Assembly: GCA_027064425.1 (NCBI GenBank)
Contig: JAMOPO010000027.1
Span: 124,001 to 188,000 of the forward strand
Length of the DNA stretch: 64,000 bases
Direction of reading: 5' to 3'
Source of the DNA: Methanobacteriota archaeon
GTDB lineage: Archaea; JAADCQ01; Methanopyri; Methanopyrales; Methanopyraceae
Shown: positions 6,475 to 41,847 of the stretch, one piece after another
Layout of the letters: every line of letters begins with the position of its first letter
How positions within the stretch are numbered: position 1 is the stretch's first letter
The notes under the pieces: model-generated
What the model saw: the letters and a program-made list of their open reading frames with translations, nothing else
Told to the model about the DNA's origin: nothing
The model's database searches: none
Position numbers and translations under genes: made by a program

Positions 6475-7386
6475 ATGGGAAAGGCAACCGTGGCGACCGC
6501 GCAGCTGTCGTCCTGCGTGGGCTGTCACGTATCGCTGCTGGACCTGCACGAGCGGCTGCTTGACCTGGTGGAGGACGCCATCGACATCAAGTACTGCTAC
6601 GTGCTGGTGGACCAAAAGGAGATCCCAGAGGAGGTCGACGTGGCGCTCATTGAGGGCAGCATTCGGAACGAGGAGGACCTGGAGGTGGCGGAGGAGCTCC
6701 GGGAGGCGGCGGAGGTCGTGGTGGCGGTGGGCACGTGCGCCTGCTTCGGCGGCGTGCACGGGCTGGCCAACCTCTTCGACCGCGAGGAGCTGCTCAAGTG
6801 GGTGTACGAGGAGTCTCACAGCACGGACGACGAGGGCGAGACGCCCAGCGAGATCGTCCCGGAGCTCTTCGAGCGCGTGAGGCCGCTCGGCGAGGTCATC
6901 GACGTCGACTACACGGTCCCGGGGTGCCCGCCTAAGCCGGACGCCATCGCGGAGGTGGTCACGGCCATCCTGGAGGACCGGGAGCCGGAGCTTCCGAGAA
7001 CCAACCTCTGCGAGGAGTGCCCGAGGGAGAAGGAGAACAAGCCCATCGAGGAGCTGAAGCTCCGGACCGGGCAGGGTAAGCCGGACCCGGACAAGTGCCT
7101 GCTGGAGCAGGGATACCCGTGCATGGGCCCGGCCACGGTGGCCGGCTGCGGGGCGGCGTGCCCGTCGCGGGGACTGCCGTGCCGAGGCTGCAACGGGCCG
7201 ACGCGGGAGGCGGCCGACCAGGGCGCCGCGTTCCTGGACGCGATCGCCTCCGTGTCCTTCGAGGCGGACGTGGACGTGGAGGAGCTCCTGGACGACCTCG
7301 TGGACCTGCCCGGACGACTCTACATGTTCTCCATGGCCGCCTCGCTCCTGAAGGGACGCCGGGACGTGATCGGCGGGGGGAGGTAG
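6475..7386 (+). CDS. vhuG: F420-non-reducing hydrogenase, small subunit
   Basis: This is the iron-sulfur small subunit of the cytoplasmic [NiFe] hydrogenase that works with heterodisulfide reductase. The 303-residue protein has the proximal cluster ligands S-C-V-G-C-H (Cys14, Cys17), GTCACFGG and the VPGCPPKPD motif. A cysteine-rich C-terminal part (C-x-x-C, C-M-G-P, C-G-A-A-C, C-R-G-C) is expected to hold the medial and distal clusters. No Tat signal is present, as for cytoplasmic enzymes. It is followed after 1 nt by vhuA and then vhuU. Confidence 0.93.
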   Translation: MGKATVATAQLSSCVGCHVSLLDLHERLLDLVEDAIDIKYCYVLVDQKEIPEEVDVALIEGSIRNEEDLEVAEELREAAEVVVAVGTCACFGGVHGLANLFDREELLKWVYEESHSTDDEGETPSEIVPELFERVRPLGEVIDVDYTVPGCPPKPDAIAEVVTAILEDREPELPRTNLCEECPREKENKPIEELKLRTGQGKPDPDKCLLEQGYPCMGPATVAGCGAACPSRGLPCRGCNGPTREAADQGAAFLDAIASVSFEADVDVEELLDDLVDLPGRLYMFSMAASLLKGRRDVIGGGR

Positions 7387-7387
7387 G

Positions 7388-8695
7388 GTGGCGGAGATTA
7401 AGATCCACCCGCTGACGAGGGTGGAGGGTCACGGAGAGGTCGTCATCGAGGTTGAGGACGGCGAGATCAAGGACGTCAAGTTCGCCATCCTGGCCGTCCG
7501 CGGCTTCGAGAAGTTCATCCAGGGTCGACCGGCGGAGGACGTCCCGTACATCGTGTCCCGGATCTGCGGCATCTGCCAGACCGCGCACCACCTGGCGGCC
7601 TGCAAGGCGGTGGACGGGTGCTTCGGCGTCGAGCCGCCCGAGGGAGGCCACAAGATCCGCTGGCTGATGCACCTGGGTAACATGATCCACAGCCACGCCC
7701 TGCACTTCTACTTCCTGGCCGCTCCGGACTACGTGATCGGCCCGGACGCCGATCCGCTGCAGCGGAACGTGATCCAGCTGGTGAAGGAGAACCCGGAGCT
7801 GGGCAAGCTGGCGATCGAGCTCCGCAAGTTCGGCCAGGACATCGTTGAGGCGACGGGAGGCAAGGCGATCCATCCGGTGTCCGGCGTCCCGGGAGGCGTT
7901 TCCGCGCCGGTGGACGAGGAGGACCGGGACGAGCTGCTCGACCGCGCGGAGGAGATGGTGGAGAAGGCCTACGAGGGTGCCAAGGCCGGGATCGAGGCCA
8001 TCAAGGAGACGCTGGATGAGTACAAGGAGAAGCACGACCTCGACCTGCTGGAGACGCTGGGCAACATCGAGACGTACCACATGGGCCTCGTGGCGGACGG
8101 GAACAGGCACGAGTTTTACGACGGTGAGGTCCGCGTCGTGGACCCGGAGGGCAACGAGTTCACGAAGTTCAAGCCGGAGGAGTACCTGGACGTGATCGCC
8201 GAGCGGTCCATCGAGTACTCGTACGTCAAGCACCCGTACCTGAAGGAGGTCGGGTACCCGGACGGCATCTACCGCGTCGGGCCGGGCGCCCGGCTGAACG
8301 TGTGCGAGGAGATGAAGACGGACCGGGCGCAGGAGCTCTACGAGGAGTACGTCGACGAGTTCGGCGAGTGCGTGAACTACTCGCTCACGATCAACTGGGC
8401 CCGGCTGATCGAGCTCGTGGCGGCGTGCGAGGAGGCCAAGCAGCTGCTCGAGGACGACGTGATCACCGAGGAGGATGAGTGCAAGGAGGACTACGAGCCG
8501 CAGGAGGGTGAGGGCGTCGGCATCGTCGAGGCCCCGCGAGGCACGCTGATCCACCACTACAAGACGGACGAGGAGGGCCGGATCACCGAGGCCAACATGA
8601 TCGTCGCCACGACCCACAACGTGCCCGCGATCGAGATGGCGCTGCGCGACGCCGCGAAGAAGCTTGAGGACGAGATCGTCAAACTGGCCGAATAG
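7388..8695 (+). CDS. vhuA: F420-non-reducing hydrogenase, large subunit (truncated form that pairs with VhuU)
   Basis: This is the nickel-iron large subunit. The first metal-ligand motif RICGIC (Cys60, Cys63) is intact. The second motif, normally D-P-C-x-x-C-x-x-H at the carboxyl end, is absent: the protein stops after 435 residues at ...DEIVKLAE. That missing piece is encoded separately by vhuU, 9 nt downstream, as in the split selenium hydrogenases of methanococci. The start is GTG at 7388, preceded by GGGGGGAGG. Confidence 0.95.
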   Translation: MAEIKIHPLTRVEGHGEVVIEVEDGEIKDVKFAILAVRGFEKFIQGRPAEDVPYIVSRICGICQTAHHLAACKAVDGCFGVEPPEGGHKIRWLMHLGNMIHSHALHFYFLAAPDYVIGPDADPLQRNVIQLVKENPELGKLAIELRKFGQDIVEATGGKAIHPVSGVPGGVSAPVDEEDRDELLDRAEEMVEKAYEGAKAGIEAIKETLDEYKEKHDLDLLETLGNIETYHMGLVADGNRHEFYDGEVRVVDPEGNEFTKFKPEEYLDVIAERSIEYSYVKHPYLKEVGYPDGIYRVGPGARLNVCEEMKTDRAQELYEEYVDEFGECVNYSLTINWARLIELVAACEEAKQLLEDDVITEEDECKEDYEPQEGEGVGIVEAPRGTLIHHYKTDEEGRITEANMIVATTHNVPAIEMALRDAAKKLEDEIVKLAE

Positions 8696-8704
8696 GTCGA
8701 CTGA

Positions 8705-8848
8705 ATGGGGGATCGGGTCCCGATGGCCGAGAAGAAGGACGTGCTGAACTACCTCGAGATGATCATCCGGAGCTACGACATCTGACTGTCGTGCGCGGCC
8801 CACGCGCTGGAGAAGGTCAGGATCCGGGTCAAGAAGCGCGGAGACTAA
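8705..8848 (+). CDS. vhuU: F420-non-reducing hydrogenase, selenocysteine subunit (47 residues, in-frame UGA)
   Basis: The frame from ATG 8705 to TAA 8848 is interrupted only by TGA at 8783-8785 (codon 27). Read as selenocysteine, it gives D-I-U-L-S-C-A-A-H, the second nickel-ligand motif (Sec-x-x-Cys-x-x-His) missing from VhuA. A second ATG at codon 7 (8723) is an alternative start. A SECIS hairpin lies 18 nt after the stop, and selB is at 32234. Ordinary gene calling would miss it, because both halves are shorter than typical cut-offs. Function: VhuU completes the active site of the VhuGAU hydrogenase. Confidence 0.93.
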
Positions 8849-8865
8849 CGCCCCCGGCCGATGAG

Positions 8866-8897
8866 GGCCCGGGGGAACCCTAACGGGACCCCGGGCC
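8866..8897 (+). promoter_or_regulatory. SECIS element in the vhuU 3' untranslated region
   Basis: The RNA folds into a 9-bp stem (GGCCCGGGG with CCCCGGGCC), an asymmetric internal loop with GAA (8875-8877) on the 5' side and a single A (8888) on the 3' side, then a 3-bp CCC/GGG stem closed by UAAC. This matches the archaeal SECIS consensus exactly. Its position 18 nt after the vhuU stop is the usual archaeal arrangement. The upper part overlaps the stop codon of the convergent membrane-protein gene. Confidence 0.92.
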
Positions 8898-9152
8898 GGA
8901 TGGTCCGGGCCTCCCCCACCTCCACGCTATCCCGTACGCGAGCAGCGCGACCAGCGTCTCCAGCGGGAGTCGGTACAGACCCACCTTCTCGATCATGACC
9001 GCGTCCACGGTGGCCGAGCCGAGCACACCGGGCAGGATGGTCAGCACCCGGAACCACCGGGGAAGCCCATACCGGAGTGAGAACCAGGTGAAGGCCGCGA
9101 ACCCGGCGACCGCGAGCGCGTTCAGCACGCAGATTCTAGCGAAGACGTCCAA
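8880..9152 (-). CDS. Small predicted membrane protein
   Basis: I do not recognise the family. The product of about 90 residues shows three hydrophobic segments (around ICVLNALAVAGFAAF, RVLTILPGVLGSATV and LETLVALLAYGIAW) and a basic, Pro/Gly-rich tail. The start is TTG at 9150-9152, 5 nt after GAGGGGTG; ATGs at 9167 and 9182 are alternatives without a good ribosome site. It lies between tRNA-Gln and the SECIS. Its stop codon (8880-8882) falls within the SECIS tip, so the two are convergent and overlapping. It could be spurious, but the hydrophobic pattern is regular. Confidence 0.5.
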   Translation of the reverse strand: MDVFARICVLNALAVAGFAAFTWFSLRYGLPRWFRVLTILPGVLGSATVDAVMIEKVGLYRLPLETLVALLAYGIAWRWGRPGPSGPGSR

Positions 9153-31394: not shown

Positions 31395-32219
31395 GTGGCC
31401 CGGTACACGCACGTGATGGAGTGCCTGGGGCGAGTGCCGGTCCGGGTGGTCTGGGAGGACGGTGAGATCCGGGCCGAGGCGCGAGGCGACCCCATCATCG
31501 AGGAGTGCCCGCTGATGAGATCCCGGGAGGGGGTCGATCGGCTCACCCCGGAGGCGGCCGAGCGGCACGTCCTGCGCAAGGCCCGGGAGATCGGGATGTT
31601 CACGCCGGAGCGCCGACTGCGGTCGTGCCGACGGTACACGCCCTTCGGCGTCTCCGAGACCCTGATGGTGTGCCTGAGGTACGGGCTCGTCAACGCGGCG
31701 GTGGTGGTGTCGGACTGCCTGGGTACCGTGGTGACCGACCGGCCCTCCGTGGTGCAGGGGCTCGGGGGCGAGGTCTCCGGGATCGTGGAGACGGACCCGA
31801 TCCCGGAGGTGGTGGAGCGGGCGGAGCGGCTCGGGTGCACGGTGCTGGAGCGGATCGACCAGGTCGAGGGCGTGGAGGCGGCCCTCGAGGAGTTCGAGCC
31901 GCCCGTCGCCGTGACGGTGGCGGACCCGGATGAGGCGGTGCGGATTCGGGAGGAGTTCGGCCGGGACGTGCTCATCGCGGCCGTGCACACCTCGGGTCTC
32001 GACGAGCGGGACGCGGATCGGCTGCTGGACGCCTGCGACATCGTCACGGGCTGTCCCGCCGGGGCCGTTAAGGAGGCGTGCGACCGGTCCTTCCTGGTCA
32101 AGTCGGGCCGCAGCATCCCGGTCTACGGCGTGACCCCGATGGGCGCCGAGGCGCTGCTGCTCAACGCCCGGGAGCTGTCCGGTGAGGAGCCGATCCGCAT
32201 CCTGCGCGGGCGGGGGTGA
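31395..32219 (+). CDS. Methanogenesis marker protein 8 (DUF2099)
   Basis: The 274-residue protein has E-C-P-L-M near residue 38, a cysteine-bearing R-S-C-R-R-Y-T-P-F-G region and D-I-V-T-G-C-P-A-G-A. I match it to marker protein 8, found in essentially all methanogens, with unknown biochemical role. The GTG is 7 nt after GGGGAG. It is followed at once by selB, which makes a two-gene unit of methanogenesis-related and selenium functions. Confidence 0.78.
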   Translation: MARYTHVMECLGRVPVRVVWEDGEIRAEARGDPIIEECPLMRSREGVDRLTPEAAERHVLRKAREIGMFTPERRLRSCRRYTPFGVSETLMVCLRYGLVNAAVVVSDCLGTVVTDRPSVVQGLGGEVSGIVETDPIPEVVERAERLGCTVLERIDQVEGVEAALEEFEPPVAVTVADPDEAVRIREEFGRDVLIAAVHTSGLDERDADRLLDACDIVTGCPAGAVKEACDRSFLVKSGRSIPVYGVTPMGAEALLLNARELSGEEPIRILRGRG

Positions 32220-32233
32220 GGAGGTTGCCCGAG

Positions 32234-33610
32234 ATGGTGCACGTGGGCCTGTTCGGTCACATCGACCACGGCAAGACCGCGCTGGCCGCGCAGCTCACGG
32301 AGAAGGCCTCGACCGCGGCGCTCGATAAGCACCCGGAGGAGCAGGAGCGCGGGATCACGATCGATCTGGGATTCTCCTCGTTCCGGCTGGGCGATTACGA
32401 GGTCACGCTGGTGGACGCCCCGGGGCACGCGGACCTGATCCGGACGGTCGTGGCGGGGGCGGAGATCATCGACGCGGCCATCCTGGTCGTGGCGGCGGAC
32501 GAGGGGCCGCAGGTGCAGACGGGCGAGCACCTGGTCGTGTTGGACTACCTCGGCGTGGACCGCGGGGTCGTGGCGCTCAACAAGATCGACCTGGTCGATG
32601 AGAGCACGGTGGAGCGGCGCATCGAGGAGGTTCGGAACGTTCTACGAGGCACCTCCCTGGAGGACGCCCCGATCGTCCCGGTGTCGGCGAAGACGGGGGA
32701 GGGCATCGACGAGCTGCGTGAGGCGCTGCTGGAGGTGCTGGAGCCGCCGGAGCGGGAGGTGGACGCGCCGTTCCGGATGCCGATCGACCACGCGTTTCAC
32801 GTGAAGGGGGCGGGCACGGTCGTCACGGGCACGGTCCTGTCCGGCGAGGTGGAGGTGGGTGAGGAGGTGATGCTCTACCCGTCCGGTAAGGTCGTGGAGG
32901 TGAAGTCGATCCAGTGCTTCGGCCGGGACCTCGACGCCGCGCGGGCGGGCGACCGGGTGGGGATGGCGCTGCGGGGGGTGAAGGAGGAGGAGATCGAGCG
33001 CGGGTTCCAGCTGGCGGAGCCCGACTCGCTGACGGTCACGAAGTACCTGGACTTGGCCGAGGTGGAGATCCACCCGCTGTTCCCGCAGTCGCTCCGGAAG
33101 CGAACCATGGTGCACGTTCACGTCGGCCTGCGCTCCGTGCCCGGGCACGTGGTCCCGCACGAGGACGGGTTCTTGAGGGAGGAGCTGGGCCCGGGCGAGT
33201 CCAGCGAGCTGTACGTGAAGCTCAACGAGCCGGTGGCGGTGCGGGAGGGTGACCCGGTCATCCTCATGAAGATGGACCTCCCGCCCACGAAGCTGCGGAT
33301 CGCGGGCGCGGGCCGAGTGGCGGGCACGGAGCGTCGGGAGACGTTCAAGCGCGTATCCGAGCGGCGGGGGCGGGTCACGGACCCGAACCACATGGGGAAG
33401 GGGCTGGCGGTGGTGGACGGCCTCGCGTTCAACAAGGAGCACGCGGAGAAGCTGGTCGGCGAGGAGGTGGAGACGGAGAGCGGGGTGAGGGGCCGGATCG
33501 TGGACACGCACGGGACGCGCGGTGCCGTGCTGGTCGAGTTCGAGGGGGACGTGAAGTCCGGGGAGAAGGTGCTGCTGAAGCGGGTGCGAGAGATCAAGGT
33601 GGACCTCTAG
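32234..33610 (+). CDS. selB: Selenocysteine-specific elongation factor SelB
   Basis: This translational GTPase delivers Sec-tRNA to UGA codons. It has G1 GLFGHIDHGKTAL, a G2 region R-G-I-T-I-D-L-G-F, G3 DAPGHADLI, G4 NKIDLV and G5 VSAKTG. Two beta-barrel domains follow (H-A-F-H-V-K-G-A-G-T-V-V-T-G-T-V), then a fourth domain ending in I-V-D-T-H-G-T-R-G-A-V-L-V-E-F. R-G-I-T-I-D-L-G-F in switch I is typical of SelB as opposed to EF1A or aIF2-gamma. I choose the ATG at 32234, 9 nt after GGAGG; the frame also has GTG 32216, which overlaps the previous stop. Confidence 0.93.
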   Translation: MVHVGLFGHIDHGKTALAAQLTEKASTAALDKHPEEQERGITIDLGFSSFRLGDYEVTLVDAPGHADLIRTVVAGAEIIDAAILVVAADEGPQVQTGEHLVVLDYLGVDRGVVALNKIDLVDESTVERRIEEVRNVLRGTSLEDAPIVPVSAKTGEGIDELREALLEVLEPPEREVDAPFRMPIDHAFHVKGAGTVVTGTVLSGEVEVGEEVMLYPSGKVVEVKSIQCFGRDLDAARAGDRVGMALRGVKEEEIERGFQLAEPDSLTVTKYLDLAEVEIHPLFPQSLRKRTMVHVHVGLRSVPGHVVPHEDGFLREELGPGESSELYVKLNEPVAVREGDPVILMKMDLPPTKLRIAGAGRVAGTERRETFKRVSERRGRVTDPNHMGKGLAVVDGLAFNKEHAEKLVGEEVETESGVRGRIVDTHGTRGAVLVEFEGDVKSGEKVLLKRVREIKVDL

Positions 33611-33655
33611 TCAGCGCTGGAACGTCTCTTCACGGCTCCGCTCCCGAGGGGCTCA

Positions 33656-34408
33656 TCATCTGAAGTGCTCCTTGGCGATTGGCAGGGTCTCGTTCGCCTC
33701 GTCCCGGGAGGTGATCCCGACCGCGACCGCGTCGGCGTACTGGGCGGCGTAGGGGATCCCTTCCTCCGGGGGGATGGAGCCCGCGGCGAGGACCTTCTTA
33801 GCGATGATCGTCCGGTCCGTGTCCTCCAGGATCTCCTCGACCCGCTTCCGGTCGCCCATGAAGGCCCCTTCAGGGTTCAGGGGTACCATGTACACGTCCA
33901 CGCCCTCGCGCGACTCCCAGCGGGGTAGGGTGGCGTCCGGCCGGTGCGTGGCGATGCCGACGGGGACCTCGAACCGGTCGCGGAGCTCGCGCAGCAGGGG
34001 GAGCACGTCGTCCGGGTCCCGCCCGTCCACTAGGCTGGCGTGCAGGAGAACCGCCCGCAGGTTCATCCCGTCGATCGTTCGCACGTCCTCGCGGAGCGGG
34101 CCGAGACCGACGACGGCGACAACTTCAAGGTCGTGCTCGACCTCCCGGAGCGCCTGGACTATCACGGGGTCCGCGAGGGCCTGGACTCCGCGGACGCCGT
34201 GCCTCTTCGCGCAGTACTCGACGAGGCGCGTGATGTTGCGCGGCTGCTCGTAGAACTTCTCCCGGTAGGTGATCGCCCTGGGACCGAATTGTCCCGCGCC
34301 CAGGAACGGTGAGGTACCTATCATAACCTTGGGGATCAGGGGTGCTTCCCCCGGCGGGGGTCGGTAGCGCGGACCCTCCTCACCGATCAGCCCGTGGTCC
34401 GTCGTCAT
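33656..34408 (-). CDS. Predicted TIM-barrel protein of unknown function
   Basis: The 250-residue product reads as a barrel: KVMIGTSPFLGAGQFGPRA near the start, alternating strands such as L-E-V-V-A-V-V-G-L-G-P and L-R-A-V-L-L-H-A-S-L-V-D-G-R, and late T-I-I-A-K-K-V-L-A-A-G-S-I-P with a conserved Lys. It recalls phosphate-binding aldolase-like barrels, but I cannot name the family or reaction. The ATG abuts GGGGG directly, so the true start is uncertain; the conserved part may begin near M-I-G-T-S. It is divergent from tmcA. Confidence 0.7.
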   Translation of the reverse strand: MTTDHGLIGEEGPRYRPPPGEAPLIPKVMIGTSPFLGAGQFGPRAITYREKFYEQPRNITRLVEYCAKRHGVRGVQALADPVIVQALREVEHDLEVVAVVGLGPLREDVRTIDGMNLRAVLLHASLVDGRDPDDVLPLLRELRDRFEVPVGIATHRPDATLPRWESREGVDVYMVPLNPEGAFMGDRKRVEEILEDTDRTIIAKKVLAAGSIPPEEGIPYAAQYADAVAVGITSRDEANETLPIAKEHFR

Positions 34409-34430
34409 CCCCCGCCAGGGGGCTGTGGGT

Positions 34431-41085: not shown

Positions 41086-41103
41086 CGACGGCCCCGGGAC
41101 CTC

Positions 41104-41847
41104 TCAGTCCGCGGTCTCCTCTTCATCCTTTCCGCTCGCCGTGTCCTCATCATCGAGCTCACGCTCCGCCTCGCGGAGGATGTCCAGGACGCCGTAGTGG
41201 GCCGCACCGATCACGAGCACGGCCCGGGACACGTCGGACCGGTGGAGGTACTCGATCGTGTTCTCCGCGATCACGGTGTTCCTCTCGTCGATCAGGACCC
41301 GGGTCACGTTGGGGAACTTACGCCGCATCCACTCGATCATCTCCCGGACGGCGCGCTCGTCCGTGACCGAGTCGGTCAGCATCTCCCGGGTCTTGGAGGG
41401 GCGGAAGACCGAGCAGAGGGCGTCGAGGAGCGTCAGGACCTGGAACTTGAGCCGCTCGGTGAGGGGGGCCTTGATTCGAATTCGGCGGAGGATGCCGTCG
41501 AGGTCCATGTCAACGGGCACGAGCTCCGCCTCGAGCTCTTCGGCGGCCTCGATCGCCCCGAGCATGTCCTCCCCGAGCTCGCCCCCCACCACGCGGCTGA
41601 CCACGCGCTCCGCCAGCGAGATGATCCGGCCGCTGAGGCGCTGGGGCCCTCTCCCTCCCTCGTCGCTTCCGTGCAGCTCGGCGAGCAGCGTCAGGAGCCG
41701 GCCCTCGCACAGCTCCAGCAGGACGGCCTCGGGCTCCAGCTCGAGGACCTTGTCCCGGACGAGCTCCCGGTCCACGCCCGCGTGGGCCGTTCTGAGCACG
41801 TGGAGCTCGGTGCCCAGGATGTGGAAGGTGTCAACGTGCAGCCGCAA
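41104..41847 (-). CDS. TraB/PrgY-like protein
   Basis: The 247-residue protein has the TraB-domain blocks R-T-A-H-A-G-V near the start, L-E-P-E-A-V-L-L-E-L-C-E-G-R, L-I-D-E-R-N-T-V-I-A-E-N-T and V-L-V-I-G-A-A-H-Y-G. The His and Glu residues are conserved and suggest a metallopeptidase-like active site, although the archaeal role is unknown. The C-terminal membrane segments often seen in the family are missing; the protein ends in an acidic tail. TTG starts directly after the comB stop. Confidence 0.82.
   Translation of the reverse strand: MRLHVDTFHILGTELHVLRTAHAGVDRELVRDKVLELEPEAVLLELCEGRLLTLLAELHGSDEGGRGPQRLSGRIISLAERVVSRVVGGELGEDMLGAIEAAEELEAELVPVDMDLDGILRRIRIKAPLTERLKFQVLTLLDALCSVFRPSKTREMLTDSVTDERAVREMIEWMRRKFPNVTRVLIDERNTVIAENTIEYLHRSDVSRAVLVIGAAHYGVLDILREAERELDDEDTASGKDEEETAD

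Follow-up and report, generated by a model that had tools for sequence, protein, structure and literature searches.

A predicted selenoprotein subunit gene, vhuU, behind a truncated hydrogenase large-subunit gene in Methanopyrus

From where does a hydrogenase large subunit that ends before its C-terminal nickel-ligand motif obtain that motif? The question is posed by a locus within a 64,000-nucleotide stretch of a Methanopyrus genome (all of it analysed here, and referred to below as the window), in which a small-subunit gene, vhuG (6475-7386, plus strand; PF01058, E 3.3e-35; NF045875 VhuG, 323.6 bits against a curated cut-off of 450), is followed by a large-subunit gene, vhuA (7388-8695, plus strand; PF00374, E 4.1e-38; NF041785, E 3.7e-170 and 566 bits against a curated 800). 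For both products the Vhu families are the best matches, with scores under the curated cut-offs. Whilst vhuA runs to a TAG stop at 8693-8695, the alignment of its product to solved MvhA/VhuA chains ends at about residue 416-424 of 473, before the C-terminal D-x-C-x-x-C-x-x-H.

A small gene behind vhuA

Directly 3' of vhuA, and separate from it, lies a small plus-strand frame (8705-8848) that is closed by TAA at 8846-8848 and whose sole interruption is a TGA at 8783-8785. Read as selenocysteine (Sec), this TGA yields YDI-U-LS-C-AA-H, the C-terminal nickel-ligand motif without which VhuA ends, and the small frame picks up the solved chain at residues 425-450 (5odc chain F 427-450 against DVLNYLEMIIRSYDIULSCAAHAL). 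The initial annotation had described a frame directly after vhuA broken by this one TGA, and had proposed that the Sec reading supplies the U-x-x-C-x-x-H absent from the truncated VhuA; our reading of the open frames bears out the former, and the alignment to solved chains the latter. With Sec entered as Cys, the small frame by far best matches the VhuU family, NCBIfam NF041786 (E 5.6e-18; score 64.5 bits, curated cut-off 70), by which the small gene is assigned as vhuU, encoding the selenoprotein subunit of F420-non-reducing hydrogenase.

We consider it almost certain that the locus is the vhuGAU of a Methanopyrus species and, jointly with this, that the best explanation is a UGA at 8783-8785 recoded as Sec, with VhuU predicted to complete VhuA. 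VhuU would then be the separately encoded C-terminal piece of a [NiFeSe] hydrogenase large subunit, its Sec21 (8783-8785, plus strand) and Cys24 (8792-8794, plus strand; the second ligand of U-x-x-C-x-x-H, invariant in the VhuU alignment) together completing the Ni-Fe site of VhuA. The matches of VhuU, VhuA and VhuG under the curated cut-offs of their models, along with that of the PSTK-like kinase described below, are points against this explanation.

The size of the subunit differs from that first given. The open frame of 47 residues stands as the initial annotation had it, but its start does not: ATG 8705, considered as the likely start, has no counterpart start codon in the four other Methanopyrus genomes, whereas the position matching 8723 is a start in all four (ATG, with TTG in one). 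We favour ATG 8723 as most likely, because it is conserved in relatives, unlike 8705, and because GGGGGATC stands immediately 5' of it; vhuU would thus span 8723-8848 on the plus strand (41 codons and TAA), encoding 41 residues rather than 47. The predicted precursor, MAEKKDVLNYLEMIIRSYDIULSCAAHALEKVRIRVKKRGD, has a computed mass of 4.83 kDa. In PDB 9sfi, which also contains a VhuA homologue chain, chain M is 27 residues long, its residue opposite Sec is given as unknown, and position 26 of the chain aligns with the query His. By analogy with this chain, mature Methanopyrus VhuU probably ends at His27, such that the fast-evolving tail behind it (8804-8845, plus strand) would be cleaved off on maturation, as homology would predict, to leave a form with a computed mass of 3.18 kDa; the Sec peptide of about 5 kDa anticipated in the initial annotation is accordingly replaced by these two masses.

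The enzyme of this family in Methanococcus passes electrons from H2 to heterodisulfide reductase, and we would expect the Methanopyrus enzyme to carry them along the same route. Without vhuU, the selenium hydrogenase of this genome would look catalytically dead; with it, the annotation of an energy-converting hydrogenase in a Methanopyrus genome is completed.

Comparison with known systems places the subunit firmly among its kind. In Methanococcus and Methanocaldococcus (NF041786; PDB 9sfi chain M), as here, VhuU is a tiny separate subunit encoded right after a truncated vhuA, and an LN-LE-R-YD-x-U-x-SCAAH core, a 3'-UTR SECIS and a tail behind the His are common to both; alignment with a methanococcal-type VhuU, which had been put forward as a check, recovers this core. 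The Methanopyrus protein differs from the methanococcal-type copy compared (L026) in having DI-U for DP-U and a shorter tail. The operon also differs, in that M. maripaludis carries vhuDGAUB in one operon whereas neither vhuD nor a further vhuB adjoins the Methanopyrus locus, vhuD lying on another contig. The VLNY-EM-IR-YD-x-C-LSCA-H C-terminus of MvhA/VhcA (e.g. 5odc chain F) aligns residue by residue with VhuU, but is fused to the large subunit and carries Cys for Sec. FruA, the Sec-containing F420-reducing large subunit of the same genome, has a YDIUASCAAH motif and a SECIS, like vhuU, and is 50% identical to VhuU over the motif, but it is unsplit and belongs to the F420-reducing branch.

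One protein of the MvhA/VhcA type is encoded in the window's genome, as an unsplit, Cys-containing large-subunit paralogue beside hdrA on contig C49. Methanococcus possesses a selenium-independent isoenzyme set (PMC11097638), and the position of the paralogue beside hdrA fits the arrangement expected of such a set; we would expect it to stand in for the Sec enzyme when selenium is short.

Both the use of Sec by Methanopyrus and the status of VhuU as a selenoprotein in nearly all archaea that use Sec have been published (PMC11227280; PMC13188914). No VhuU is apparent among the seven M. kandleri selenoproteins of a 2005 read-through scan (PMC1242214). The term ‘hidden’ in the initial annotation, which held that gene callers would drop or split vhuU, is fair in the light of that scan; equally apt was its remark that split selenium hydrogenases were already known, VhuU being a textbook subunit of selenium-using methanogens. 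Methanopyrus VhuU is a further case of a known selenoprotein subunit, and not a new kind.

SECIS element and selenocysteine machinery

Behind vhuU, a search of both strands of the whole window places a match to Rfam RF01737 (flpD RNA) at 8858-8903 on the plus strand (42 bits against a cut-off of 40, E 1.3e-6), with an outer helix extending to about 8852-8909. The element has a GAA/A asymmetric internal loop, forming a kink-turn-like core, between G-C clamped stems, and a GAA/A kink-turn-like motif is the defining feature of methanogen SECIS elements (PMC11881835). Consensus structure and GAA/A core are common to this element and to RF01737 and the methanogen SECIS; relative to the consensus, the Methanopyrus stems are nearly all G-C, as expected for a G+C-rich hyperthermophile genus, and the outermost pair is imperfect in the window's genome. 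The Rfam match starts 75 nt, and the GAA core lies 92 nt, 3' of the Sec UGA. Archaeal SECIS elements occur in the 3'-UTR, some 80-1,300 nt away from the codon for Sec (PMC2933860), and that of vhuU sits at the short end of this range. From these features, we infer that the 3'-UTR element acts as the SECIS directing Sec incorporation at the vhuU UGA.

In the four relatives, too, RF01737 is matched immediately behind vhuU; the scores are 55.8, 53.1, 42.0 and 37.3 bits, of which 37.3 falls slightly short of the cut-off of 40. When the 62 nt of the window's genome are folded at 37 C, the minimum-energy fold is not the SECIS, which is a point against the Sec reading, and the centroid is the SECIS; folding at 70 or 95 C makes the SECIS the minimum. 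Covariation sought within the SECIS of the five Methanopyrus sequences gave little information, the sequences being too alike.

Decoding of the UGA as Sec would involve SelB and Sec-tRNA-Sec along with the SECIS. The Sec-specific elongation factor gene, selB, is within the window (32216-33610, plus strand; TIGR00475, 335.7 bits against a cut-off of 242.25), 23 kb from vhuU, whilst a tRNA-Sec with anticodon TCA lies on the same contig about 6 kb before the window (69.5 bits against a cut-off of 47). The genome also has a SepSecS gene, a SelD with its own in-frame UGA and a gene for a PSTK-like kinase (full-length match to TIGR03574 at E 1.5e-75, scoring 253.2 bits where the curated cut-off is 290.5). 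All the parts that the initial annotation had listed as a full set (an early-ending VhuA, VhuU, SECIS and selB) were thus found, selB being real if 23 kb distant. Further Sec-containing proteins of the genome are FruA, VhuD, HdrA and FwuB, together with a formate dehydrogenase having one in-frame TGA. Other selenoprotein genes of this genome carry the same type of SECIS. As a separate observation, archaeal C/D-box sRNA families are matched weakly, each time under the curated cut-off, at 520-575, 34360-34411, 41101-41157 (minus strand) and 33609-33663, this last at the 3' end of selB.

Could the UGA be read through with some other amino acid, Cys or Trp for example, by near-cognate suppression? 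Partial substitution of this kind is conceivable under low selenium. However, the Sec pathway is complete and has a dedicated tRNA-Sec (the PSTK-like match falling under its curated cut-off), a separate Cys isoenzyme is present, and elsewhere in the window UGA is the most frequent stop, ending 29 of 57 likely genes as picked by a crude acidic-residue rule; we therefore regard this alternative as very unlikely.

Conservation in five Methanopyrus genomes

Five Methanopyrus genomes, some of them closed, were compared (G000-G004, G000 being the window's genome). The UGA, the SCAAH, the SECIS and the same gene arrangement are present in all five, so that conservation of VhuU and its SECIS across the genomes compared is shown; the combination that the initial annotation had named as evidence to the contrary, a Cys codon in close relatives with no SECIS, failed to appear. 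Together with the E-values of the VhuU family and SECIS matches, the shared arrangement speaks against a frame arisen by chance. Pairwise codon differences between the five fall into three regimes: 53 synonymous and 12 nonsynonymous before the UGA, 10 and 0 from the UGA to the His, and 22 and 63 over the tail that follows it. Such a pattern would be expected if a translated motif preceded a propeptide that is later discarded. A profile search of genome contigs with the VhuU alignment, using patterns built with Cys, gave among the matches listed mostly bacterial Cys-containing hydrogenases and no Methanopyrus, and was thus uninformative.

These data bear upon a second alternative, in which translation really terminates at the UGA: the small frame would be either what decay has left of a fused subunit or the source of a peptide of 20 residues, and the function would fall to the unsplit Cys paralogue. 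That the same genome has a full-length Cys paralogue speaks for it; against this, the codons from the UGA to the His differ across the five genomes only synonymously (10 to 0), a SECIS lies directly downstream in each of the five, and VhuA itself is intact. We judge a true stop to be extremely improbable, and a pseudogene reading of vhuU was rejected on the five-genome codon pattern which, taken with the conserved UGA, makes it very unlikely. The same evidence excludes the reading that the subunit is split but selenium-free and that its TGA is a misread or misassembled TGC (Cys). The window's genome, a 57-contig draft, might leave room for such an error, but this reading is refuted by the same TGA and SECIS in five independent genomes, closed ones included, and is left with a vanishingly small probability.

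UGA as selenocysteine codon and as stop

Of the 28 selenoprotein genes examined in Methanopyrus, which are homologous across the five species and hence not independent, 13 also have UGA as their terminal stop. The 28 comprise 5 vhuU, 5 fruA, 4 vhuD, 5 selD, 5 fwuB and 4 hdrA, one SECIS-less fwuB among these 5 having been left out of the count of UGA stops; those ending in UGA are vhuU in G001, G002 and G004 (L128, L129, L130), fruA in G000, G003 and G004 (L124-L126), vhuD in G001 and G002 (L135, L137), and selD in all five genomes (L141-L145). The proportion is close to the background of UGA stops given above for the window (29/57). Between most species, the frame behind the terminal UGA has neither the same length nor the same sequence, and the terminal UGA therefore reads as a stop. 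Within these genes, terminal UGAs lie 13-36 nt upstream of the GAA core, abutting the SECIS stem in the selD of five genomes and the fruA of two, whereas no Sec UGA comes closer to the core than 92 nt.

We propose, at even odds, that in Methanopyrus the distance to the SECIS decides how a UGA within a selenoprotein mRNA is read, as Sec at 92 nt or more and as stop at 13-36 nt, with the corollary that Cys codons far upstream can become UGA and stay decodable, as in HdrA (CHUG) and FwuB (CPFUGTLC). UGA stops overlapping the SECIS were noted earlier in Lokiarchaeia (PMC11227280), and given these overlaps and the known range of SECIS distances (PMC2933860), the dual use described here extends earlier observations and is not the first of its kind; a literature search on dual-use UGA found nothing. 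For the question of how archaea discriminate, within one message, between a UGA for Sec and a UGA for termination, these side results supply a naturally occurring data set.

The two proteins named in the corollary each have an extra in-frame TGA in the window's genome: FVCHUGVNI in HdrA (L162, G000:C27:217154-219121) and CPFUGTLCDD in FwuB (L151, G000:C15). Both positions are Cys (TGC or TGT) in all other Methanopyrus copies seen, and in each gene the usual Sec and a SECIS are present besides. Two independent TGAs at conserved Cys codons of SECIS-bearing genes suggest candidate recent Cys-to-Sec replacements, specific to this genome.

Sec content varies elsewhere in the genus. VhuD has two Sec codons (CCYEU, AGUKKGEC) in G000, G001 and G002 (L138, G000:C26:954-1322), whilst in G004 (L136, G004:C1:15373-15741) the first is retained and the second position is Cys. 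The formate dehydrogenase alpha gene of G004 (L175, G004:C90:4109-6073), unlike those of the other four Methanopyrus genomes, has no in-frame TGA and presumably encodes a Cys form. In G001, a second fwuB/fwdB copy (L154, G001:C1:553203-554471, minus strand) has a Sec TGA (VUHGPS) with no SECIS found behind it, and G002 has no TGA at the matching site; the G001 copy looks like a gene conversion of the Cys locus. The Cys-type VhuD and HdrA of G001 are each broken into two frames.
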